57,320 bases of DNA, taken from a virus. Where the stretch lies: positions 1 to 57,320 of the IMG/VR virus record IMGVR_UViG_3300042981_000082, one strand, 5' to 3'. The position numbers and the translations under genes were made by a program. The notes under the pieces are model-generated. The model was given only the letters and a program-made list of their open reading frames with translations, had not been told where the DNA came from and did not search any database. Shown piece by piece: positions 1 through 57,320 of this stretch (position 1 is its first letter; each line of letters begins with the position of its first letter).

Positions 1-27
1 TTTGCTACTTCACATTCTGTCGTGCCG
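1..27. repeat. terminal direct repeat (copy 1), circular closure
   Basis: These 27 bases are identical to the last 27 bases of the window (57294-57320). The end of the tail chaperone gene lies in this copy, and the tape measure start with its Shine-Dalgarno sequence lies just before the other copy, so the structural operon reads through the join. The simplest reading is an assembly overlap of a circular or circularly permuted molecule, giving a unit of 57,293 bp. A genuine short terminal repeat is less likely, because the break splits a co-transcribed gene pair. Confidence 0.9.
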
Positions 28-21152: not shown

Positions 21153-22034
21153 ATGACGAACAACTGGAACATGGCCGAGCGGATGGCGCGGATCGCCTGG
21201 AGCACAATCGCGGAGCCCGGAGACCCGTACGTGGACTCCTGGTGCACGGAGGAGGGCGGATACAGCCAGGGCATCAAGGCGCTGGCCGAATACCAGGGGA
21301 AGGCCCATCATGTGCTGCGCTGGCAGGCCCAGATGGAGACCTCGCTGGTCCCGCGCGTGACCAGGCTGCTGGCCGAGCACCAGATCGGCACGCTCATCCC
21401 GGGCGATGTGTACTGGCCGCGTCGAATCGGCGATCTCGGGGGCAACGCGCCCTGGATCCTGTACTTCCGTGGCGCTCCCGAGATGCTGGACGAGGACAAG
21501 ATCGTGGCCGTCATTGGCGCTCGTGCCGCCACTGCGTACGGCGAACACGTGTCCAGGACCTGGAGCCAGGAATTCGCCCGGCAGAACGTGGCTGTCATCT
21601 CCGGCGGAGCCTACGGCATCGATGCGGCAGCCCATCGTGGTGCCCTCGACGAGCACGGAGCCACGATCTCCGTCATGGCTGGCGGACTGGATCGCCTCTA
21701 TCCATCCGGCAACCAGGATCTCCTAGGCACCGTGGCCTACGAGGGGCTGATGGTCAGCGAGATGCCGCCGGGATACGCGCCCACCAAGTCACGCTTCCTG
21801 GCGCGCAATCGCCTGATCGCAGCGCTGAGCGACGTGATGCTCGTGGTCGAGGCAGGTCACCGCAGCGGATCGCTGAATGCGGCGCATCATGCCATCGTCC
21901 TGGACCGCATGCTGTGTGCAGTTCCTGGACCGATCACCTCAGCCGCATCCGGCGGATCGAACGACCTGATCGCCGAGGGCGTGGCCAGGCTGGTCGCCAC
22001 CTCCGGCGATGTGATCAAACTGGGGGGCTGGTGA
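21153..22034 (+). CDS. dprA: DprA/Smf-like single-stranded DNA-binding protein
   Basis: The protein is 293 residues and matches the Rossmann-like DprA core. Visible motifs are VIGARAATAYGEHVSRTW, ISGGAYGIDAAAHRGAL, VMAGGLDRLYPSGNQDL, SEMPPGYAPTKSRFLARNRLIAALSD and VEAGHRSGSLNAAHHA, followed by AVPGPITSAASGGSNDLI. Bacterial DprA loads RecA on incoming DNA. The phage copy keeps the fold but lacks an obvious C-terminal winged helix. It may protect or recombine phage DNA early after entry. AAGGAGAG lies ahead of the ATG. Confidence 0.85.
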   Translation: MTNNWNMAERMARIAWSTIAEPGDPYVDSWCTEEGGYSQGIKALAEYQGKAHHVLRWQAQMETSLVPRVTRLLAEHQIGTLIPGDVYWPRRIGDLGGNAPWILYFRGAPEMLDEDKIVAVIGARAATAYGEHVSRTWSQEFARQNVAVISGGAYGIDAAAHRGALDEHGATISVMAGGLDRLYPSGNQDLLGTVAYEGLMVSEMPPGYAPTKSRFLARNRLIAALSDVMLVVEAGHRSGSLNAAHHAIVLDRMLCAVPGPITSAASGGSNDLIAEGVARLVATSGDVIKLGGW

Positions 22035-25922: not shown

Positions 25923-26225
25923 ATGCTTCGAATGAAGATCCGTGTGACCGACGACGAGAAGACGATCATCTCCCGGTACGCGCACGAACAGTACACCGAG
26001 ATGTCCTCGATCATCCGATCGAAGGTCAACGCCTACGGGAAGAAGGGCCTCAAGGGGATCGCGCTGCCCAAGGTGCTCTCCTCGGTGAGCGCATCGCGTC
26101 GCAATCGTCAGCTGTCCTTCGTCATTCCACCCGAGCAGTGGGATCTTGCGCTGGAGAGATCCCGTGCGGACGGCGTGCCGTTGGCGACCATCATCCGTAG
26201 CTCGCTGCTGGAGGATGCCAGGTGA
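25923..26225 (+). CDS. RHH-like DNA-binding protein with two repeats
   Basis: The protein is 100 residues from an ATG with GAAAGGAAAG upstream. Two similar halves can be seen: MKIRVTDDEKTIISRYAHEQ...MSSIIRSKV, and RQLSFVIPPEQWDLALERSR...LATIIRSSLL. Each has the strand-helix-helix look of a ribbon-helix-helix unit, so one chain could form an intramolecular RHH pair. It is coupled to the methyltransferase gene (GTGAG overlap) and may regulate it. Confidence 0.55.
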   Translation: MLRMKIRVTDDEKTIISRYAHEQYTEMSSIIRSKVNAYGKKGLKGIALPKVLSSVSASRRNRQLSFVIPPEQWDLALERSRADGVPLATIIRSSLLEDAR

Positions 26226-26869
26226 GTGAGCCGTACTACGTCGATGAGTACGTGACACTCTTCCTGGGCCGGATGCAGGACAACGACCAGTGGCTGGACG
26301 CCGACGTGCTGATCACCGACCCGCCATACGGGATGCGCTACGTCAGCAACTCCTCCAAGGTCTCCCCGACAGACCCGATCATCGGCGACCAGGACACCAC
26401 CCAGCGCGACATTGCGCTGGCCATGTGGGGCGATAAGAAGGCGGCGCTGGTGTTCGGGACCTGGCGTGCAGATCGTCCGCGAGGCACGCGCCAGTTGCTG
26501 GTCTGGCACAAGGGGGACTCGCCGGGGATGGGCGACCTCACCCTGCCGTGGGGACCCAGCCACGAGGAGATCTACGTGCTGGGCGGACGCGGTGGAGTCG
26601 GCTTCACCGGCAAGCGAGGGCCATCCGTGATCCGCTCCCGGGTGAAGGAAGGCAGCGCGCCCAAGGATCACGATCACCCGACGCCCAAGCCGATCTACCT
26701 GATGCAGACGTTGATCGCCAAGACCACCGGGACCATCGCCGATCCGTTCGCAGGATCGGGAGCAACAGCCGTGGCAGCCAAGATGCTGCGGCGCAAGTGC
26801 ATTGCCGTGGAGTTGGACCGCGGCTATTGCGACACAATCGTCCAGCGACTGGAGCGTATAGAACGATGA
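26222..26869 (+). CDS. DNA methyltransferase (N6-adenine/N4-cytosine, DPPY type)
   Basis: The protein is 215 residues. The catalytic DPPYG is at 33-37 and the SAM-binding DPFAGSG at 174-180, an order typical of the beta class. HPTPKPIYLM precedes the SAM motif, as in other phage DNA methylases. A short target-recognition region lies between the motifs. No restriction partner is visible, so it probably modifies phage DNA against host enzymes. It starts at GTG inside the preceding stop and is coupled to the following SLOG gene. Confidence 0.85.
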   Translation: MSEPYYVDEYVTLFLGRMQDNDQWLDADVLITDPPYGMRYVSNSSKVSPTDPIIGDQDTTQRDIALAMWGDKKAALVFGTWRADRPRGTRQLLVWHKGDSPGMGDLTLPWGPSHEEIYVLGGRGGVGFTGKRGPSVIRSRVKEGSAPKDHDHPTPKPIYLMQTLIAKTTGTIADPFAGSGATAVAAKMLRRKCIAVELDRGYCDTIVQRLERIER

Positions 26870-27488: not shown

Positions 27489-28169
27489 GTGAGTATACCC
27501 ACACCGTCAGATAGCTCGCAATCTAGAGACACACCATCTCGTGGTGACAGTGACGCCTCGCCACTAGATGTTGTAGTCCGTGCGCTATCCAAGCTCGACG
27601 ATGCGCAACGCAGACTGGTTAATGAGCAGGCCAATGTCACTGCGGCGCGCGATGTTGTCGAGGCTGAATTACTAAAGCTCGGCAAATACGTCGAGTATCA
27701 CGACATGCCTACGCCGATTGATCTGGTTCGAGAGATCTATTGGCATCAACCAACTGTCAGAGTCAAGGCGATATCCGATTCGTTCCCGACAACCTGGTCG
27801 TACCAGAGCCTTGTTTCCAGGGATATGGGAGAAGGCTCTCGACAGCGAAAGTGTGTCGTATGCGATGCGTTATTTGAGTATCCAGTTTCTGTACGATCCT
27901 GGAGCGGAAGCAAGCCGATCACCTGTTCGCGGGAGTGCAGTGTTGCCTACAACCTGGATGCCGAAGAGAAGGACAGGATGCGACGTGAACGAGAGGCTTG
28001 GGAATTCCGCTCTGCGATCGCCAATGGCAACTATGTGATTAGCAAACAGACAACATCCATTGGTGGAAAAGAAATTGTCTATGAGTATGCAATCATCCTG
28101 ACAACAACTGGTGCTGGATATTCCTATTCGCCCGACGACTTCGAGAAGGAGTTTGGGCATCTGGCATGA
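27489..28169 (+). CDS. lower-GC protein with zinc-finger-like motif
   Basis: The protein is 226 residues from a GTG with AGAAAGG upstream. Codon use is visibly AT-richer than its neighbours (many codons ending in T or A), pointing to more recent acquisition. A polar N terminus and helix (LDDAQRRLVNEQANVTAARDVVEAELLKL) precede CVVC and, 20 residues later, C.REC, a C-x2-C...C-x3-C zinc finger seen in some phage DNA-associated proteins. The gene lies just after a terminator but is ATGA-coupled to the initiator-like gene. Confidence 0.65.
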   Translation: MSIPTPSDSSQSRDTPSRGDSDASPLDVVVRALSKLDDAQRRLVNEQANVTAARDVVEAELLKLGKYVEYHDMPTPIDLVREIYWHQPTVRVKAISDSFPTTWSYQSLVSRDMGEGSRQRKCVVCDALFEYPVSVRSWSGSKPITCSRECSVAYNLDAEEKDRMRREREAWEFRSAIANGNYVISKQTTSIGGKEIVYEYAIILTTTGAGYSYSPDDFEKEFGHLA

Positions 28170-28897
28170 GCATCGAGGCAATGAGATGGGTCTGGGAGAA
28201 CACGACCTATACGGGTAACAAGCTAAATACTCTCGTTGCGATAGCCAGTTTCCTGGACGCGAGCGGACATGGCTACCCAGGCATCGACAAGATTCGTGAG
28301 CGCTGTCACTTATCGAAGAACACCGTGCTCAAATTCATCGCTGAATACGAGGACGAGGGCGTGCTCAGCAGGGATCGTCGCAACGTGGACAAGGGCTATC
28401 GGACGAGCAATGAATACCACTTGACGAGCCTAAGTCCAAAGTCCAACAAGACTGGACCTAGGCCTAAGTCCAGTTTTGAGCAGCCTAAGTCCAGTTTTGA
28501 GCAGCCTAAGTCCAACATGTTGGACCTACATAGGAAAGTAAGTACAGAAAGTCAGAAAGAAAGTCAGTTAACTACGCGCGAGGGATTCGATTCTGTCTGG
28601 GATTCATGGCCTCGGAAAGAGAACAAGCGAGCAGCGAAGAAGGCCTTCGAGATCGCGATGGAGAAGTCGCCCGACGAGCGAGCGGTGATCAATCGCATCC
28701 TCGTATTCGGCCAGATCTTCAGCCGTGGCAATCCGAAGTACGTTCCGGGACTGGCCAGGTGGCTGGACGACGAGCGCTGGAACGACGAGCTACCCAGGGA
28801 GAGAGCGCCCCTGAATGACAGCAACATGGACGCCATGGTCCGGCTCAGTGGCTGGATCAACGCAACACCAGGAACGATTGGAGGGATCACATCATGA
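28166..28897 (+). CDS. HTH replication initiator-like protein (lambda O-type architecture)
   Basis: The protein is 243 residues. Residues 1-85 form a winged-helix/HTH domain (ENTTYTGNKLNTLVAIASFLD, IDKIRERCHLSKNTVLKFIAEYEDEGVLSRDRR). A linker with PKS-starting heptads (residues 91-120) lies over DNA repeats described separately. The C-terminal half (FDSVWDSWPRKENKRAAKKAFEIAM, YVPGLARWLDDERWND) is the module found in phage replication proteins that contact the helicase. The gene precedes a helicase-loader-like protein and a DnaB-like helicase, so it likely marks the origin. Confidence 0.75.
   Translation: MSIEAMRWVWENTTYTGNKLNTLVAIASFLDASGHGYPGIDKIRERCHLSKNTVLKFIAEYEDEGVLSRDRRNVDKGYRTSNEYHLTSLSPKSNKTGPRPKSSFEQPKSSFEQPKSNMLDLHRKVSTESQKESQLTTREGFDSVWDSWPRKENKRAAKKAFEIAMEKSPDERAVINRILVFGQIFSRGNPKYVPGLARWLDDERWNDELPRERAPLNDSNMDAMVRLSGWINATPGTIGGITS
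28429..28567 (+). repeat. iteron-like repeats and AT-rich stretch inside the initiator gene (putative origin)
   Basis: CCTAAGTCC occurs at 28429, 28463, 28484 and 28505, the last three exactly 21 bp apart as part of a 21-bp unit continuing AGTTTTGAGCAG. An inverted near-copy GGACCTAGG abuts the second (28454-28462), and the palindrome TCCAACATGTTGGA follows at 28511-28524. An A-rich tract with two AGAAAGTCAG copies (28546, 28558) comes next. The first copy is in a different codon phase from the others, which suggests DNA-level selection. The layout resembles lambdoid origins inside O genes. Confidence 0.65.
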
Positions 28898-29247
28898 CCA
28901 AGAAAGAAATCGCTGCACTCCTCGGCCTCATCGCCGGGGCTGATGGCCGACAGCCAGATGCACTGATGGCCGAGGCATGGTACGCCGTCCTCGATGGGAT
29001 GGACATCACGTTCCCGCAGGCACGCGAGAAGGTCCTCGCGTTCTACCGTGCCGGACACACCCGGCGCATCCAGATCGGCGACATCACCGCCAAGAAGAAG
29101 ATCACCGAGCAGGACGGCTACAACATCAAGCGCCGGGACCTGTTCGGCGAGCGCCGTCGTTGGCAGGCGGCTCATCCCAACGGCACCGCTGCCGAGTTCG
29201 CCAAGTGGTACGAGGCCACCGACAACCAGATCGAGCCGAAGCCATGA
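28894..29247 (+). CDS. small replication-module protein, possibly G39P-like helicase loader
   Basis: The protein is 117 residues. The N-terminal two-thirds (TKKEIAALLGLIAGADGRQPDALMAEAWYAVLDGMDITFPQAREKVLAFY) resembles the helical domain of SPP1 G39P-type loaders/inhibitors. The rest is basic and helical. It is ATGA-coupled on both sides, between the initiator-like and DnaB-like genes, the usual place for a loader. The family match is a visual judgement. Confidence 0.55.
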   Translation: MTKKEIAALLGLIAGADGRQPDALMAEAWYAVLDGMDITFPQAREKVLAFYRAGHTRRIQIGDITAKKKITEQDGYNIKRRDLFGERRRWQAAHPNGTAAEFAKWYEATDNQIEPKP

Positions 29248-30452
29248 CCGGGACAGTTGCCGAGCAGCACCTGATCGGTGCGGTGATCCTCGAGCCTCGG
29301 TACTACACAAGTCTGGAGCAGCTGGTCACCGGCGACGACTTCAGCGATGCGCGGATGGGCCAGGTCTACGATCGCATCGGCCAGATGCTGCGCGCCGGAG
29401 AGGTGGTCGATCAGATCACCGTCATTGAGGCCATCGAGTCCCTGGACCTGGTGAACTTCGACTCGACCCAGGTGTTCTCCTGGGCGGATGCATCGGTGGC
29501 TCCATCGGCAGCGGTGGACTACGCCAAGGCCGTACGCCGGGACAAGCTGCGTCGTGCCATGGGCGACGTGGTTCAGGTCATGACCGAGCGCGCAGCATCC
29601 GGCGATAGCCCGTTCGACATCGCCAGCGATTCGATGCGTGCGCTGTCCAGCGTGCTGGAAGGGGCGACCTCGGGGCGCTTGCAACCCAAGCGGTTGCGGG
29701 AGATCCTGGATGAGCCAGACAGCTTCGACTGGATCATCCCCGGCTTGCTGGAACGCCAAGACCGACTGATCCTGACCGGAGGTGAGGGCGTGGGAAAGAC
29801 GACATTTGCACGCCAGATAGTCCTGCTTGCTGCCGCTGGCCTGCACCCGCTACGCTTCGAGCGGATGCATCCCGTCCGCTGCCTGGTTGTCGATGCCGAG
29901 AACACCGAGAGGCAGTGGCGCAGGTACGTTCGCTGGCTTGCGCACGATGCTGCTGAGCAGGGCGTCATTGATCCTCGCGATCACGTGTTCATCCAGGCAG
30001 GATCACGAATCGATATCACCAGTGGCAGCGACCTGGCCGAGATCCATCGGCTCATCGATATCCACAAGCCCGACCTGCTGTACATCGGGCCGCTCTACAA
30101 GCTCGTTCCGAAAGCGATCTATTCGGACGACGACGCCGCACCCCTGATCGTGGCATTGGATTCGCTGCGGGACCGGGGCCTGGCGCTGGTCATGGAAGCA
30201 CACGCTGGCAAGGCCAAAGATCACCACGGCGACAGGTCACTGGAGCCGAGGGGGTCGAGCCAGCTACTGGGCTGGCCGGAGTTCGGATTGGGACTCCGGC
30301 AAGACGAGGACGACCCCAAGCGGGTTGACGTTGTGCGCTGGCGTGGCGACCGTGAGGCCGACCGCGAATGGCCCACGGCGATGTACCACGGCAAGACCTT
30401 CCCCTGGATCGATTCGTCGATCCGAAATCAGAACGGAGAACCTGATGAGTGA
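29244..30452 (+). CDS. DnaB-like replicative helicase / RecA-fold ATPase
   Basis: The protein is 402 residues. Residues 1-135 resemble the DnaB N-terminal domain (AEQHLIGAVILEPRYY, DQITVIEAIES, VRRDKLRRAMGDV). The RecA-like core has Walker A GGEGVGKTT (179-187), Walker B CLVVDAEN (213-220), and later MEAHAGKAKDHHGDRSLEPRGSSQLLGWPEFGL. The last part resembles RepA/AAA_25-type hexameric helicases more than full-length DnaB, and the enzyme is somewhat short. It should unwind DNA at the fork. The start overlaps the previous stop. Confidence 0.8.
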   Translation: MTGTVAEQHLIGAVILEPRYYTSLEQLVTGDDFSDARMGQVYDRIGQMLRAGEVVDQITVIEAIESLDLVNFDSTQVFSWADASVAPSAAVDYAKAVRRDKLRRAMGDVVQVMTERAASGDSPFDIASDSMRALSSVLEGATSGRLQPKRLREILDEPDSFDWIIPGLLERQDRLILTGGEGVGKTTFARQIVLLAAAGLHPLRFERMHPVRCLVVDAENTERQWRRYVRWLAHDAAEQGVIDPRDHVFIQAGSRIDITSGSDLAEIHRLIDIHKPDLLYIGPLYKLVPKAIYSDDDAAPLIVALDSLRDRGLALVMEAHAGKAKDHHGDRSLEPRGSSQLLGWPEFGLGLRQDEDDPKRVDVVRWRGDREADREWPTAMYHGKTFPWIDSSIRNQNGEPDE

Positions 30453-30933: not shown

Positions 30934-31235
30934 ATGTCCCGGTGCTCGTCCAGGTATCTGGATGGACGGTCAGCATCTGCGTCCTGGCCCGTACCCCCGA
31001 TGGCGTGGCGCTCATGGCGAAGAACACCTACCGACCGATGGGCCACGTCAAGCGCTCGGCACGCCGGGGGGATCACGGCTTTGCGATCACGGTCTGGGAA
31101 TGGACCGACGAGCGCGGCGCTCGTGGCATCGGCAAGACCAAGGCTGACGCGATAGCCAAGATGCTGCACCATGGCGGCTACGTCGAGGTGGACATCAACG
31201 CCACCATCCCAGATCTGTTGGCCGGTCTGGAGTAA
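30930..31235 (+). CDS. hypothetical protein
   Basis: The protein is 101 residues from a GTG that overlaps the previous stop (GTGA). It begins with strands (VPVLVQVSGWTVSICVLAR) and has a basic middle and a final GKTKADAIAKMLHHGGYVEV. No family is recognised. It is the last gene before the surface protein leader. Confidence 0.55.
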   Translation: MNVPVLVQVSGWTVSICVLARTPDGVALMAKNTYRPMGHVKRSARRGDHGFAITVWEWTDERGARGIGKTKADAIAKMLHHGGYVEVDINATIPDLLAGLE

Positions 31236-31317: not shown

Positions 31318-32472
31318 ATGAACATCAAGAGAATCGCTGCGGGGCTCGGCACCGTGGCACTGATCGCGGCAGGGGCGGTGATCGGGTTTGCTGCGCCTGC
31401 TAGTGCACACACGGCGAGCCTCACCGGCTCGGCTGAGTGCGGCGACGATGGCTCGGCGACGATCACCTGGTCGTTGACCAACGACTGGGATCTGTTCGCT
31501 ACCATCACCGACAGCACGCTGGCCGGTGACCTCCGCGCCAACCAGACGCTGGGCGCACACGCCACCAAGACGGCCACCCAGGTCGTGGCCCCTCCGGCTG
31601 CTGGCGCGATCGTTGCCGCCAACGTGTCGGTCAAGTGGTCGGATGGCGTGACGGCGACCTACCAGAACCAGGTCACGATCAGCGACGACTGCGTTGTGCC
31701 ACCGCCTGCCGAGCCGAACCCGGCTGCCAGCATCGACACGACCTGTGGCGCCGCAACCGTGACGGCTACCAACGAACTGGGCGATGCACTGGACCGGCTG
31801 ACCGCAAGCCTTGTGGTCTACGTCGATGGCACAGCAACGCTGTTCCCGACAGTGCCAGCCGGTCAGAGCTACACCTCGGACCCGATCACCTTCGGCGAGG
31901 ACAGCGGCGATCACACGGTGACGGTACGAACCGGGCCAGCGTTCGGCGATGTCGAACTGACAACGGCAACGGTGTCCAGCGACTGCACGGTGCCGGTCAC
32001 CCCGATCATCCCGCTGGATGCCACGGCAACCGTCGCGACGACGGATGCCACGTGTGACGCCGATGGCACGGTGAGCTTCGATCAGGTCAATGCAACCTGG
32101 TCCGACGCTCAGCGTGGCGAGGATGGCGTGTTCAGCCGGATCGCCACCGCCGACGATGGACACCTGTTCAACGCCGGGGATGGCGTCAGCGACGACCAGA
32201 CCACCAAGACGGTGACGTACTCGATCCAGCCTCAGCTGACCGGGGACGACTGCGCAGCCGTGGTCACCCCGCCGACGAGCACGCCGACGACGACTCCGGT
32301 TGCCACGGTGAACGACACGCCGGTTGCCCTGGAGACCCAGAGCGCTGGCCTGGCCGACACGGGATCGAACATCGACGGTGCAATCTGGGTTGCCGGAGGT
32401 GGGCTGGCCGCTGGTCTGCTCATCCTCAGCCTGGTGTTCTGGTCGCGTCGTCGCCAGATCAACCAGCAGTAA
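31318..32472 (+). CDS. secreted, sortase-anchored (LAxTG) surface protein
   Basis: The protein is 384 residues. Residues 1-30 are a signal peptide (basic MNIKR, hydrophobic core, ASA before His31). Three tandem beta-rich domains each carry one cysteine pair: C41/C125, C143/C223 and C246/C312, fitting disulfide-bonded Ig-like folds outside the cell. A Thr/Pro linker leads to LADTG (345-349), a hydrophobic helix (about 355-375) and an SRRRQ tail, the layout of a cell-wall sorting signal. LAxTG is the type used by class E sortases of actinobacteria. It would be displayed on the infected cell, perhaps to block other phages. Confidence 0.8.
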   Translation: MNIKRIAAGLGTVALIAAGAVIGFAAPASAHTASLTGSAECGDDGSATITWSLTNDWDLFATITDSTLAGDLRANQTLGAHATKTATQVVAPPAAGAIVAANVSVKWSDGVTATYQNQVTISDDCVVPPPAEPNPAASIDTTCGAATVTATNELGDALDRLTASLVVYVDGTATLFPTVPAGQSYTSDPITFGEDSGDHTVTVRTGPAFGDVELTTATVSSDCTVPVTPIIPLDATATVATTDATCDADGTVSFDQVNATWSDAQRGEDGVFSRIATADDGHLFNAGDGVSDDQTTKTVTYSIQPQLTGDDCAAVVTPPTSTPTTTPVATVNDTPVALETQSAGLADTGSNIDGAIWVAGGGLAAGLLILSLVFWSRRRQINQQ

Positions 32473-32484
32473 CAATCGACAGAA

Positions 32485-32522
32485 CGGCCCGGCCTCTAGT
32501 GTGCACCAGTGAGGCCGGGCCG
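32485..32522 (+). terminator. strong hairpin after the surface protein gene
   Basis: CGGCCCGGCCTC (32485-32496) pairs perfectly with GAGGCCGGGCCG (32511-32522) around a 14-base loop. It follows the surface protein stop by 12 bases. No T tract follows, so it is a strong pause, a U-tract-free terminator or a processing site. Confidence 0.65.
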
Positions 32523-34540: not shown

Positions 34541-34551
34541 ACTAGTTACGT

Positions 34552-34568
34552 GCCCGTTGATCACGGGC
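34552..34568 (+). promoter_or_regulatory. short inverted repeat in the ssb leader
   Basis: GCCCGT-tgatc-ACGGGC has six-base arms and ends 23 bases before the ssb start. It may be a leader hairpin or a binding site. SSB autoregulation by leader structure is possible but not shown. Confidence 0.4.
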
Positions 34569-34591
34569 GAGACATTGAGACTGGAGATGAA

Positions 34592-35071
34592 ATGGCACAG
34601 GGCGAAACGCAACTTACGGTGATCGGGAACCTCACCGCCGATGCCGAACTGCGATACACGCAGGCGGGATTGGCCGTGGCGAACTTCACGATCGCATCAA
34701 CGCCCCGCGAATTCGACAAGGCCAGCAACGAGTGGAAAGACGGACAGGCATTGTTCCTCCGGTGCTCCGCTTGGCGCGACCTCGCCGAGAACGTGACCGG
34801 CTCGCTGACGAAGGGATCGCGAGTGATCGCGGTCGGACGCCTCAAGCAGCGCAGCTACGACACCAAGGAAGGCGAACACCGAACCGTCATCGAGATGGAT
34901 GTCGATGAGATCGGGCCATCCTTGCGGTTTGCAACGGTGAGCGTTCAACGCTCGCAGACGAGCCGGACACAGCAGGACAACAGACAGCGCACGCAGACCG
35001 GCACCGATGGTGCCACGCCAGCGGATGATGTCTGGAACGCACCTGGCTACGACGACGAGACTCCGTTCTAG
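34592..35071 (+). CDS. ssb: single-stranded DNA-binding protein
   Basis: The protein is 159 residues. The OB fold covers residues 5-110 ([80 protein letters not shown]). A Gln/Thr-rich linker leads to an acidic tip ending DDETPF, the partner-docking tail of bacterial SSBs. It coats single strands in replication and recombination and opens the recombination block. GGAGATGAA precedes the ATG. Confidence 0.92.
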
Positions 35072-35803: not shown

Positions 35804-36216
35804 GCGACCTGCGCGAACACCTCCTGAGCATCCGACGCCAGCACGGAGCGCTCACCCCGCGTGCCGTGCTGGTGGAGGCCGAGCCGGAGGACTCACCGCT
35901 GCATCACCATTTCGAGTGGGACCAGGAGGCGGCGGCGGATGCCTACCGGCTTGAGCAGGCGCGCGAGTTGATCCGTTCCGTGATGGTCGTCTACACCGAC
36001 AGCAAGGCACGCAACCGGAGTGTGCGCGGTTTCGTGAACGTCCAGCAGGCTGGATCTACCGGTCGCGAATACAAGCCCATCGAGGAGGTGGCGCAGGACC
36101 CGTTCGCGCGTCAGCTTGTCCTGCGTGAAGCCGAACGCGACTGGAAGGCACTGCGCTCCAAGTACGGGGACCTCCAGGAATTCATGGATCTCGTGCGCAA
36201 CGATGTCGCAGTCTAG
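35800..36216 (+). CDS. hypothetical protein preceding the pentamer array
   Basis: The protein is 138 residues and starts by ATGA coupling. It begins with LREHLLSIRRQHGALTPRAVLVEAEPED, typical of small actinophage early proteins. A basic loop (DSKARNRSVRGFVNVQ) and a helical end (LREAERDWKALRSKYGDLQEFMDLV) follow. No family is certain. Its stop codon directly abuts the GG(C/T)NN array. Confidence 0.6.
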   Translation: MSDLREHLLSIRRQHGALTPRAVLVEAEPEDSPLHHHFEWDQEAAADAYRLEQARELIRSVMVVYTDSKARNRSVRGFVNVQQAGSTGREYKPIEEVAQDPFARQLVLREAERDWKALRSKYGDLQEFMDLVRNDVAV

Positions 36217-36765
36217 GCAGGCCAGGCTAGTCGAGGCGGGTCGAGTCCAGGCAAGGCGCGGCGAGGCAGGCGAGTCGAGGCATGACGTGGTAGGGCTTGG
36301 CGGGGCTGGGCTAGGCAGAGCGAGGCAGGGCAGGCAGGGTACGGCCTGGTGCGGCCTGGCTGGGCTTGGCGCGTCGAGGCAGGCAAGGCATGGCTCGTCA
36401 GAGCATGGCTCGGCTTGGCACGGCAGGCTGGGCATGGCACGGCAAGTCTGGGTCCGGCAGGGTTCGGTTGGGCGCGGTGTGGCGTGGCAAGGCAGGCACG
36501 GTGCGGCGTGGGGAGGCACGGCGGGGCGCGGCTTGGCAGGCACGGCACGGCTCGGCTAGACATGGCAGGTCTCGGCCCGGCAAGGCAGGCACGGAATGGC
36601 GTGGTTGGGCTTGGCTCGGCGGGGTGTGGCACGGCAGGCGAGGTATGGCTCGGCCTGGCATGGCAGGGCAGGGTTGGGCTGGGTGCGGCAAGGCAGGCTG
36701 GGCATGGAATGGCCAGGCAGGGCAAGGCTGGGCACGGCCGGGCTTGGCGCGGCAGGCAAGGCTGG
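36217..36765 (+). repeat. degenerate five-base GG(C/T)NN array, about 110 units
   Basis: The stretch of about 550 bp is made almost wholly of five-base units GGCNN or GGTNN, with GG recurring every five bases and the last two bases varying freely. Occasional one-base slips change the phase. The plus strand is extremely G-rich and all six frames are nearly open because stop triplets hardly arise. No frame looks like a real protein. GG-N3-GG spacing fits two-layer G-quadruplexes and R-loops during rightward transcription. It lies directly upstream of rusA. Confidence 0.85.
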
Positions 36766-36785
36766 AAGTAACGAAAGGAAACGCA

Positions 36786-37277
36786 GTGGAAATCGCGTTT
36801 GAGGTCGATGGCGTGCCGGGACCGCAAGGGTCGAAGCGGTACGTCGGCAAGCGCAAGAAAGGTCCCCGAGCCGGGCAGGCAATCATGATCGAGTCGTCGA
36901 AAAAAGTTCGACCCTGGCGCGAGGCCGTTCGCCTCGCCGCCATCCAGGCGATGGACGAGGACCCAACCTGGGAACGCGGATTCGATGGACCGGTTGCGCT
37001 GAGCATTTTGTTCTACTTGCCGCGTCCAGAATCTGCACCGAAACGATCACGAATCCGAGCTAAGAGAGTGCCCGACGTGTCCAAACTTTTGCGTGCCACC
37101 GAGGACGCGATCACCGACTCGGGCCTATGGCGGGATGACGCTCGCGTTGTCATCGCCCACGTGGAAAAAACATACGCGATCGGATCGCACCTGAGCGCCA
37201 TCTATCAACTCGACGACCGCGAGATAGCGGGAGCCGAGATCACCATCGAAGCACTGGGAGAAACGGAGGACACATGA
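36786..37277 (+). CDS. rusA: RusA-like Holliday junction resolvase
   Basis: The protein is 163 residues from the GTG at 36786, chosen because GAAAGGA lies just upstream and the sequence before it is the pentamer array. Family landmarks are FEVDGVPGPQGSKR near the start, and RVPDVSKLLRATEDAITDSGLWRDDARV (about 94-121), which holds the acidic metal ligands and the DD pair. RusA dimers cut four-way junctions. Placement with SSB, annealing protein and nuclease fits processing of recombined or concatemeric DNA before packaging. An open frame of 140 more codons upstream is probably not translated. Confidence 0.85.
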   Translation: MEIAFEVDGVPGPQGSKRYVGKRKKGPRAGQAIMIESSKKVRPWREAVRLAAIQAMDEDPTWERGFDGPVALSILFYLPRPESAPKRSRIRAKRVPDVSKLLRATEDAITDSGLWRDDARVVIAHVEKTYAIGSHLSAIYQLDDREIAGAEITIEALGETEDT

Positions 37278-38382: not shown

Positions 38383-38861
38383 GGACACAAGACGAGATCC
38401 GCGCTCGATTGGACACCGTGCGCGCATCCCATCTGGACTTCCTGGGCAAGCGCCAGGAGGTGCTCGTCCAGACGCTGGACTATGAGCACATCAAGGATCT
38501 GCTCACCGATCCCGACCCGGAGAAGTGGGGCGATCCACAGACGCCGTGGGAAACCTCAGCGGCTGCTGGCGAATACCTGGCATTCGCCGTGGAGAAGGCG
38601 ATCGATCACCGGGGCCTCTCGGCCAACCGATCTATCGACGCCTTCACCGAGTACCTGTGGCTGCTCACCGACGACGACACCTGCCGGAAGTTCGATGAGG
38701 TCCGCTACGCCCCGTATGGGATGCCGAAGCTGAAGTTCGCGGCGGAGGCGCTGGGCTTCACGGAGGCCTTCGACGCCATGGGCAAGGAGTACGGAGTCGA
38801 GATGGCGCGGATGGCGGCTGGGCTGTCGTGCAGCGATAACTGCGGGGAGTGTTTCTCGTGA
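38379..38861 (+). CDS. hypothetical protein with Cys-rich C terminus
   Basis: The protein is 160 residues and ATGA-coupled. It is helical and acidic (RTQDEIRARLDTVRASHLDFLGKRQEVLVQTLDYEHIKD is spread over its first 40 residues). It ends in SCSDNCGECF, which might bind metal. It sits between the annealing protein and the Cas4/RecB-like nuclease. The function is unknown. Confidence 0.6.
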   Translation: MRTQDEIRARLDTVRASHLDFLGKRQEVLVQTLDYEHIKDLLTDPDPEKWGDPQTPWETSAAAGEYLAFAVEKAIDHRGLSANRSIDAFTEYLWLLTDDDTCRKFDEVRYAPYGMPKLKFAAEALGFTEAFDAMGKEYGVEMARMAAGLSCSDNCGECFS

Positions 38862-39814
38862 CCGGCGTCGAGGTGATTCAGCGAGGCCAGCGCCTGGCCG
38901 AGCAGATGGTGGCCGATATGGTGCACCACCAGAACAACCGGCCTCGTTCGCTCCAGAGCCAGAAGCGCATCCTGGGTATGAGCGAGATGGGCGGATGCCG
39001 CGAGTACATCCGGGCCACCATCGCCGGGGACAAGAAGATGGACCCGACGCTGTGGAAGCAGGAGGCCGAGTTCGGCACGGCGCTGGGCGACTACATCGAG
39101 AACGCCATCGGCGAGGCGCACGGTGATGACGTGATGCTCCAGCACAGGCTGACGCTGGAGTTGCAGGTGGGCGGTCATCCCATTCGGGTATCCGGCTCCA
39201 CCGACATCATCTACATCACCGACGACGGAGACATCGTTGACCTCAAGTCGAAGAACGGGCTGGGCCTGACCAAGCGCGAGGGACCGACCTTCAAGAACAA
39301 GGCTCAGCTGGCTGGCTACATGGAGGCTGCCGTCCAGGAAGGCCTGGTGAATCCAGAGACAGTAGCTGGACACCTCATGTTCTTCGACCGGGGAGCAGCC
39401 GAGAAGGGCTTCCTGCCGTACTCGATGGACTACGCGCAGGCCAAGCTGATCCTGGAGGCGGTGTCCGAGCGCCTGGAGGATGTTGCCAGCGCGCTATCCA
39501 CAGCCAGGATGGCGACCCGCGATGAGCCGGAGTCCTGGTGCTGGGCGGTGCAGTGCCCGTTCTACAACAACTGCTGGGCTGGCTACATGCCGGATCAGAA
39601 GATCGAGAACCCCGAGGCGCTGGAAGCCATTCGCATCTACGTCGAGGCTCGCCGTGATCGCAATGACGACATCAGCGCGGTCGAGGCTGCCAAGCAGATG
39701 CTGGAGGGAATCGAGGGCGTCACGCCGGACGGTGTTGTCGTGCGCTGGACCGAGGTCATGCCGAAATCCGGCAACGCCTACATGAAGCTCGAAGTGAGGG
39801 AGCCGAAGCAATGA
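38858..39814 (+). CDS. Cas4/RecB-like PD-(D/E)xK nuclease with probable Fe-S cluster
   Basis: The protein is 318 residues from a GTG overlapping the previous stop. The active site is D116 (SGSTD), D128 and K130 (VDLK), followed by Q150-x3-Y154. One cysteine at 47 and three at 228, 233 and 239 fit the 4Fe-4S layout of Cas4 and AddB-like nucleases. The last 70 residues are an extra helical part. It likely resects DNA ends to produce single strands for the Rad52-like protein. GGGAG precedes the start. Confidence 0.8.
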   Translation: MTGVEVIQRGQRLAEQMVADMVHHQNNRPRSLQSQKRILGMSEMGGCREYIRATIAGDKKMDPTLWKQEAEFGTALGDYIENAIGEAHGDDVMLQHRLTLELQVGGHPIRVSGSTDIIYITDDGDIVDLKSKNGLGLTKREGPTFKNKAQLAGYMEAAVQEGLVNPETVAGHLMFFDRGAAEKGFLPYSMDYAQAKLILEAVSERLEDVASALSTARMATRDEPESWCWAVQCPFYNNCWAGYMPDQKIENPEALEAIRIYVEARRDRNDDISAVEAAKQMLEGIEGVTPDGVVVRWTEVMPKSGNAYMKLEVREPKQ

Positions 39815-57293: not shown

Positions 57294-57320
57294 TTTGCTA
57301 CTTCACATTCTGTCGTGCCG
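57294..57320. repeat. terminal direct repeat (copy 2), circular closure
   Basis: This is the second exact copy of bases 1-27. The tape measure Shine-Dalgarno sequence lies partly in this copy and the chaperone stop codon is repeated here (57298-57300), which confirms continuity of the operon over the join. Confidence 0.9.

Follow-up and report, generated by a model that had tools for sequence, protein, structure and literature searches.

The gene at positions 31,318 to 32,472 (+ strand) of the window, that is, the whole 57,320-nucleotide stretch of viral DNA analysed here (IMG/VR record IMGVR_UViG_3300042981_000082), encodes a predicted sortase-type surface protein of 384 amino acids which is very probably displayed, anchored, on the surface of the infected cell. 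Judged from sequence comparisons, LAxTG proteins of this kind are a recurrent feature of Microbacteriaceae and Micrococcaceae phages and not the peculiarity of one gene. As regards their role, the preferred reading is that they exclude competing phages or block re-adsorption, which is possible though short of probable, and the whole explanation, wall display by the host sortase together with exclusion and protection of the progeny, is proposed at somewhat under an even chance.

All parts of a cell-wall anchoring layout were located in this frame, for which the coordinates and stop codon given in an earlier note on this DNA were found to be correct. The ATG at 31,318 is preceded by AAGGG, seven bases upstream, and the frame from an alternative in-frame ATG farther 5', at 31,171, does not begin with a signal peptide. 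The signal peptide (31,318-31,407, residues 1-30, MNIKR...APASA, cut before HT) was called by sequence rule alone, without SignalP, and its cleavage site was placed by eye; the ASAHT stretch is conserved in relatives. It is followed by ectodomain 1 (31,408-31,692, residues 31-125, Cys41 and Cys125), ectodomain 2 (31,693-31,995, residues 126-226, Cys143 and Cys223) and ectodomain 3 (31,996-32,262, residues 227-315, Cys246 and Cys312), the six cysteines amounting to one pair per domain and presumably being joined as disulfides. A Thr/Pro-rich stalk (32,263-32,349), the LADTG sorting signal (32,350-32,364, residues 345-349), a transmembrane helix (32,371-32,445) and the basic cytoplasmic tail RRRQINQQ (32,446-32,469) complete the protein, whose most hydrophobic 19-residue segment begins at residue 356; all these features lie on the + strand. 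Both sequence marks of a class E sortase substrate were thus present, namely the N-terminal signal peptide and, near the C-terminus, LAxTG followed by a helix and a basic tail, LAxTG being recognised by class E sortases of actinobacteria according to PMC5148588.

Such a layout is rarely produced by chance. The anchor alone was obtained in 5 of 200,000 shuffles of the protein and the anchor with a signal peptide in none (0/200,000). The full arrangement claimed in the earlier note is confirmed, and only one of the 293 open frames of at least 100 amino acids in the window carries it. The three domains were also compared as possible sequence repeats, which was ruled out, the pairwise scores being reached in 62, 25 and 171 of 300 shuffles. 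No family of Pfam, NCBIfam or PHROGs matched the window protein above cut-off. With TIGR01167 (LPXTG_anchor), it scored 12.8 bits, below the cut-off of 15.9; consequently, the generic LPXTG model alone would miss the anchor, which is supported instead by comparative evidence. This model is not specific either, since 9 of 14 control genomes passed its cut-off; so did 11 of the 26 carrier records and 1 of the 11 comparison genomes.

Structure prediction, suggested earlier as a check on the three domains, gave a well-modelled beta-sandwich for ectodomain 2 (residues ~134-222; means over ten residues mostly 81-91, apart from a block at 65) and no confident model for domains 1 and 3, on which statements of fold are weak because the overall mean is 55 and pTM 0.31. 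The best two structural matches of ectodomain 2 were enzymes of the phospholipase C type (rmsd 2.6; Z 8.8 over 80 residues and Z 8.7 over 89). This agrees with a weak Pfam match, below threshold, to PLipase_C_C (PF05506) that was seen only in Pumpernickel, at 15.1 bits against a gathering cut-off of 24.4, and not in the window protein; solved structures searched with an ectodomain 2 profile gave nothing of weight. Ectodomain 1, modelled at low confidence, matched Fab constant domains at Z about 7, which may reflect merely a common arrangement. Foldseek placed RbmA, a biofilm matrix protein, among its top matches at a low TM-score and this, together with the resemblance of a stalked, modular, repeat-rich ectodomain with a beta-sandwich fold to fibrillar adhesins, raises the question of an anchored adhesin by which infected cells would stick to uninfected kin or to surfaces, releasing progeny near new hosts. 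As no known adhesin family was matched, and long-range colonisation would be of little use to lytic phages that kill in one cycle, this explanation is considered unlikely.

Strong support for anchoring came from the occurrence of this layout in other actinophages. Relatives were located through the ectodomain or the gene position and not through the anchor. With the window protein as tblastn query, the middle domain was matched in nine annotated phage records (E 1e-7 to 1e-2), and further records were reached from the RobinRose protein (94 Microbacterium records, of which only those inspected are covered by any statement on the C-terminus) and from the Kithara protein (3 records). A close-relative scan of viral contigs using the whole window protein found none, whereas the alignment-based scans did find relatives. 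In all 16 named phages inspected (Pumpernickel, Kurnik, FuzzBuster, Magritte, Zooman, RobinRose, Kithara, Hendrix, Squash, Terij, Rie18, Leaf, Margaery, Paschalis, Sunfish and Yappy; phages of Microbacterium, Curtobacterium and Micrococcus), the protein starts with a signal peptide and ends with LAxTG, a helix and basic residues. LAxTG was likewise found in all 12 IMG/VR loci detected by ectodomain (4 + 8), among which L009 ends at the contig edge right after the motif and L027 is identical to Paschalis; a third of these loci, L031, is without its N-terminus and has an end like that of L030. The second place of the motif is A, not P, in every relative, which is the class E signal. Outside the middle domain, ectodomain 1 of the window protein has 36% identity with the first domain of the L033 protein.

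Several of these genes were found to be misannotated. In Pumpernickel gp243 (L002:2951-4960), the annotated start lies too far downstream and moving it upstream restores the signal peptide, while in RobinRose, Squash, Terij, Leaf and Margaery the signal peptide begins at an internal ATG, about 20-30 codons after the annotated start. The relatives are annotated as 'membrane', 'hypothetical' or, wrongly, 'glycosyltransferase', the last label being borne by the LAxTG surface proteins Paschalis gp81 (L024:2836-4161) and Quhwah gp85. No Pfam family was found above cut-off in nine relatives.

The recurrence of the motif bears on a rival explanation, according to which the product is an unsorted type I membrane protein with an incidental LAxTG. 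The many relatives annotated as membrane protein and the score of the window anchor under the curated TIGR01167 cut-off would be consistent with it; it is nevertheless improbable, LAxTG being kept at the same place before the helix in 16 of 16 inspected named phages while the ectodomains differ. On inspection, a full-layout protein was found in none of 11 comparison genomes of the same portal lineage as the window, covered in full or nearly (4 Mycobacterium, 2 Gordonia, 1 Rhodococcus, 1 Streptomyces, 2 Arthrobacter and 1 Microbacterium phages), so that the recurrence of the layout in unrelated phages, together with these 0/11 genomes, lends strong support to the earlier reading of export and class E-type sorting on the infected cell. 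The gene is therefore not universal in this virion lineage, as SadLad (Microbacterium) and Wilde (Arthrobacter) are without a full-layout protein. The layout script, which missed Rie18 because of its longer tail and covered Zipp and Squash up to base 58,000, passed a LAYTG frame of SilentRX (L052:15448-16026), the real frame of which has no signal peptide, and a 96-residue LAATG frame without signal peptide is present in SadLad (L080:14729-15019). These short LAxTG-helix-basic frames sit near the primase or after a glycosyltransferase and are perhaps remnants or a different type of small protein.

A match to the Pfam Sortase family was found in none of the 26 phage records, hence anchoring would have to be carried out by a host enzyme. 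In another reading, an abundant phage substrate floods or decoys the host sortase or export machinery and so strips the host of its own surface proteins. By the class E rule the sorting signal does equal that of host substrates, but large, diverse and fast-changing ectodomains, up to the 877 amino acids of the Magritte LAxTG protein, would be needless for this purpose, and the short LAxTG frames that do exist lack a signal peptide. Such a decoy is judged quite improbable.

The position of the gene supports display during infection over assembly into particles. As stated in the earlier note, it lies among replication genes and not tail genes: a replication initiation protein (28,166-28,897) and a DnaB-like helicase (29,244-30,452) are encoded upstream, and a single-strand DNA-binding protein (SSB, 34,550-35,071), a RusA-like resolvase (36,768-37,277), a recombinase and a Cas4-like exonuclease (38,849-39,814) downstream, the coordinates being of + strand genes, whereas the virion genes (capsid, portal, terminase, tail) occupy the - strand. 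From this position, early expression of the LAxTG gene would be expected. In Kithara, the gene order matches that of the window (replication initiator, DnaB helicase, LAxTG gene gp65, SSB, resolvase, DNA repair, Cas4 exonuclease), yet the gp65 ectodomain gave no match to the window ectodomain despite its equivalent position. Elsewhere, the LAxTG gene is two genes away from the primase/helicase (RobinRose gp77), adjoins the polymerase/primase (Squash), lies downstream of two DnaE genes (Rie18), is close to thymidylate synthase and DNA polymerase (Kurnik) or to a helicase (FuzzBuster), or adjoins a sigma factor gene (Terij, Margaery and Paschalis). A virion component carried on the particles, such as an Ig-like decoration, is highly improbable under these conditions, although Ig/FnIII-like folds are common in tail proteins and minor tail proteins were among the weaker matches in the viral fold library; the best match in that library was the FuzzBuster LAxTG protein itself, the protein carries a signal peptide and a sorting signal, and its gene lies outside the virion operon, which in the window is on the other strand.

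The closest capsids to that of the window belong to Microbacterium phage RobinRose and Curtobacterium phage Kithara, and the portal and terminase are also common to both, so that the host is likely to be in the Microbacteriaceae; it is a soil-type bacterium. A 27-base direct repeat is found at both ends of the window (1-27 and 57,294-57,320), and the record, which carries no completeness estimate, is therefore probably a complete, circularly closed assembly.

Within the RobinRose group, the ectodomains have changed more quickly than the helicase encoded nearby. The RobinRose helicase is 94-95% identical to those of CandC, Kelcole, BirdInFrench and OneinaGillian (its self match was given as 95.2%, a second, weaker piece having been averaged in), compared with 88, 88, 73 and 62%, respectively, for the LAxTG protein. 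Exchange between phages is indicated by Hendrix, a 97-kb phage of another genus with the same host species as RobinRose; its protein matches 78% of the RobinRose protein at 65% identity. Among 38 proteins compared, Kurnik matches the window only in the LAxTG protein, a tape-measure protein and a lysin, and the IMG/VR phage of locus L010 has little else in common with the window. These patterns fit exclusion and do not prove it; fast divergence is compatible with any surface protein under selection.

A G+C-rich hairpin with a 12-bp stem (32,485-32,522, + strand) lies 3' of the stop codon; it is terminator-like, has no U tract and was not called by a U-tract terminator scan. Terminator hairpins without a U tract are usual in actinobacteria. 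The 60 bases 3' of the stop reach a folding energy of at least -29 kcal/mol in strength in 13 of 17 LAxTG genes versus 23 of 276 other genes from 16 of the same loci, for which the Fisher p of 2.8e-10 overstates independence since the phages counted are partly related. Upstream hairpins were not enriched (4/17 versus 7/147; Mann-Whitney p 0.64, with a control leaving out Kithara, RobinRose and Magritte, which are present in the 3' comparison). No sigma-70 consensus promoter match was found, and Rfam gave nothing in the window.

With its own 3' hairpin in 13 of 17 cases and its spread among unrelated phages, the gene could be seen as a host-derived cargo gene (moron), having a surface role that benefits the host rather than the infection. 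Two pattern scans covering the genomes of 84,980 species, however, found no bacterial relative of two ectodomain types, and none was found in plasmids for one of them; distant bacterial relatives may be missed by these scans, which require a degenerate word of about 8-10 residues to be matched exactly. In addition, no tyrosine or serine integrase was found in the window, so there would be no lysogen to profit from such a gene. A moron is thus improbable as well.

For exclusion, the preferred role, the following sequence of events is proposed. During infection, the phage would make a Sec-exported precursor, the LADTG of which would be cut by the host class E sortase, linking the protein to peptidoglycan. 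The infected cell would then display a stalked beta-sandwich array in the wall layer where the glycopolymer receptor is located, and other phages would be excluded by a block of adsorption or of DNA entry. Since the protein would be covalently fixed to the wall, it could also prevent progeny from becoming stuck to wall debris once the cell has lysed. Regarding the receptor, OneinaGillian and KaiHaiDragon, both of which match the LAxTG protein with C-termini outside the inspected set, are described in PMC9224216 as lytic phages whose receptor is periodate-sensitive and proteinase K-insensitive, and therefore likely a wall carbohydrate. The Quhwah group, which includes Paschalis on the basis of its genus, has no repressor or integrase gene according to PMC7302621, a study of 116 Microbacterium phages. 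A wall-fixed, fast-changing protein within a carbohydrate layer would fit the exclusion of rivals or the protection of progeny from debris.

Related strategies are known from other systems. T5 Llp and TP-J34 Ltp are small phage lipoproteins on the infected cell that block further infection or re-adsorption; they are lipid-anchored, whereas a peptidoglycan linkage is predicted for the window protein. SasX, a prophage-carried LPXTG surface protein of staphylococci with a colonisation role in a pathogen, resembles the window gene as a phage-carried gene for a sortase-anchored surface protein, but the present type is found in lytic phages of many genera and has LAxTG. CwpV of Clostridioides difficile is not known to be an LAxTG substrate. 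It is wall-displayed likewise, has variable C-terminal types and blocks phage DNA entry (PMC4737114). Although host-encoded, unlike the window protein, it is a precedent for a wall protein that stops phage DNA entry, and the window protein may have a comparable antiphage role. The chaplins ChpA-C of Streptomyces, class E substrates, have the LAxTG signal and the usual export and anchor layout alike (PMC5148588) and differ in being host-encoded with unrelated ectodomains, while the window protein type is encoded by lytic phages.

Prophage-borne LPXTG proteins are thus already known, whereas the open-licence literature searched gave no account of lytic actinophages with LAxTG or LPXTG proteins, and nothing useful on class E sortase in Microbacterium; the passages of PMC7302621 covered do not mention sortase or superinfection. 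The presence of a similar gene in many unrelated viruses of related bacteria suggests a common but overlooked viral way of altering the infected-cell surface, a process of which little is known for lytic phages of Gram-positive bacteria. It is possible, though short of probable, that covalent re-coating of the infected wall is common among lytic phages of Microbacteriaceae and Micrococcaceae, with a fast-evolving, exchanged and phage-specific ectodomain on a conserved LAxTG chassis and a borrowed host class E sortase, as an undescribed exclusion and anti-readsorption system. If the protein is sorted to the wall, many cultured Microbacterium phages carry a testable single-gene system and, therefore, phage-phage competition, receptor protection and viral use of the host sortase become directly testable in laboratory strains. 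The annotation of genes labelled membrane, hypothetical or glycosyltransferase is also corrected.

Further features of the window were also observed. A DprA-like protein (21,153-22,034) and an N6/N4 DNA methylase (26,222-26,869) are encoded in its early region. At 36,215-36,660, the RusA-like gene is preceded by G+C-rich repeats of low complexity (periods 5, 15, 19 and 20 bases), in which both strands are open. In Kithara (L017), genes 74 and 88 are both annotated as DNA polymerase sliding clamp. Finally, a perfect 21-base repeat of 2.5 copies (28,462-28,514, SSFEQPK units) lies within the replication initiator gene of the window; repeats of such kind mark origins in some phages.
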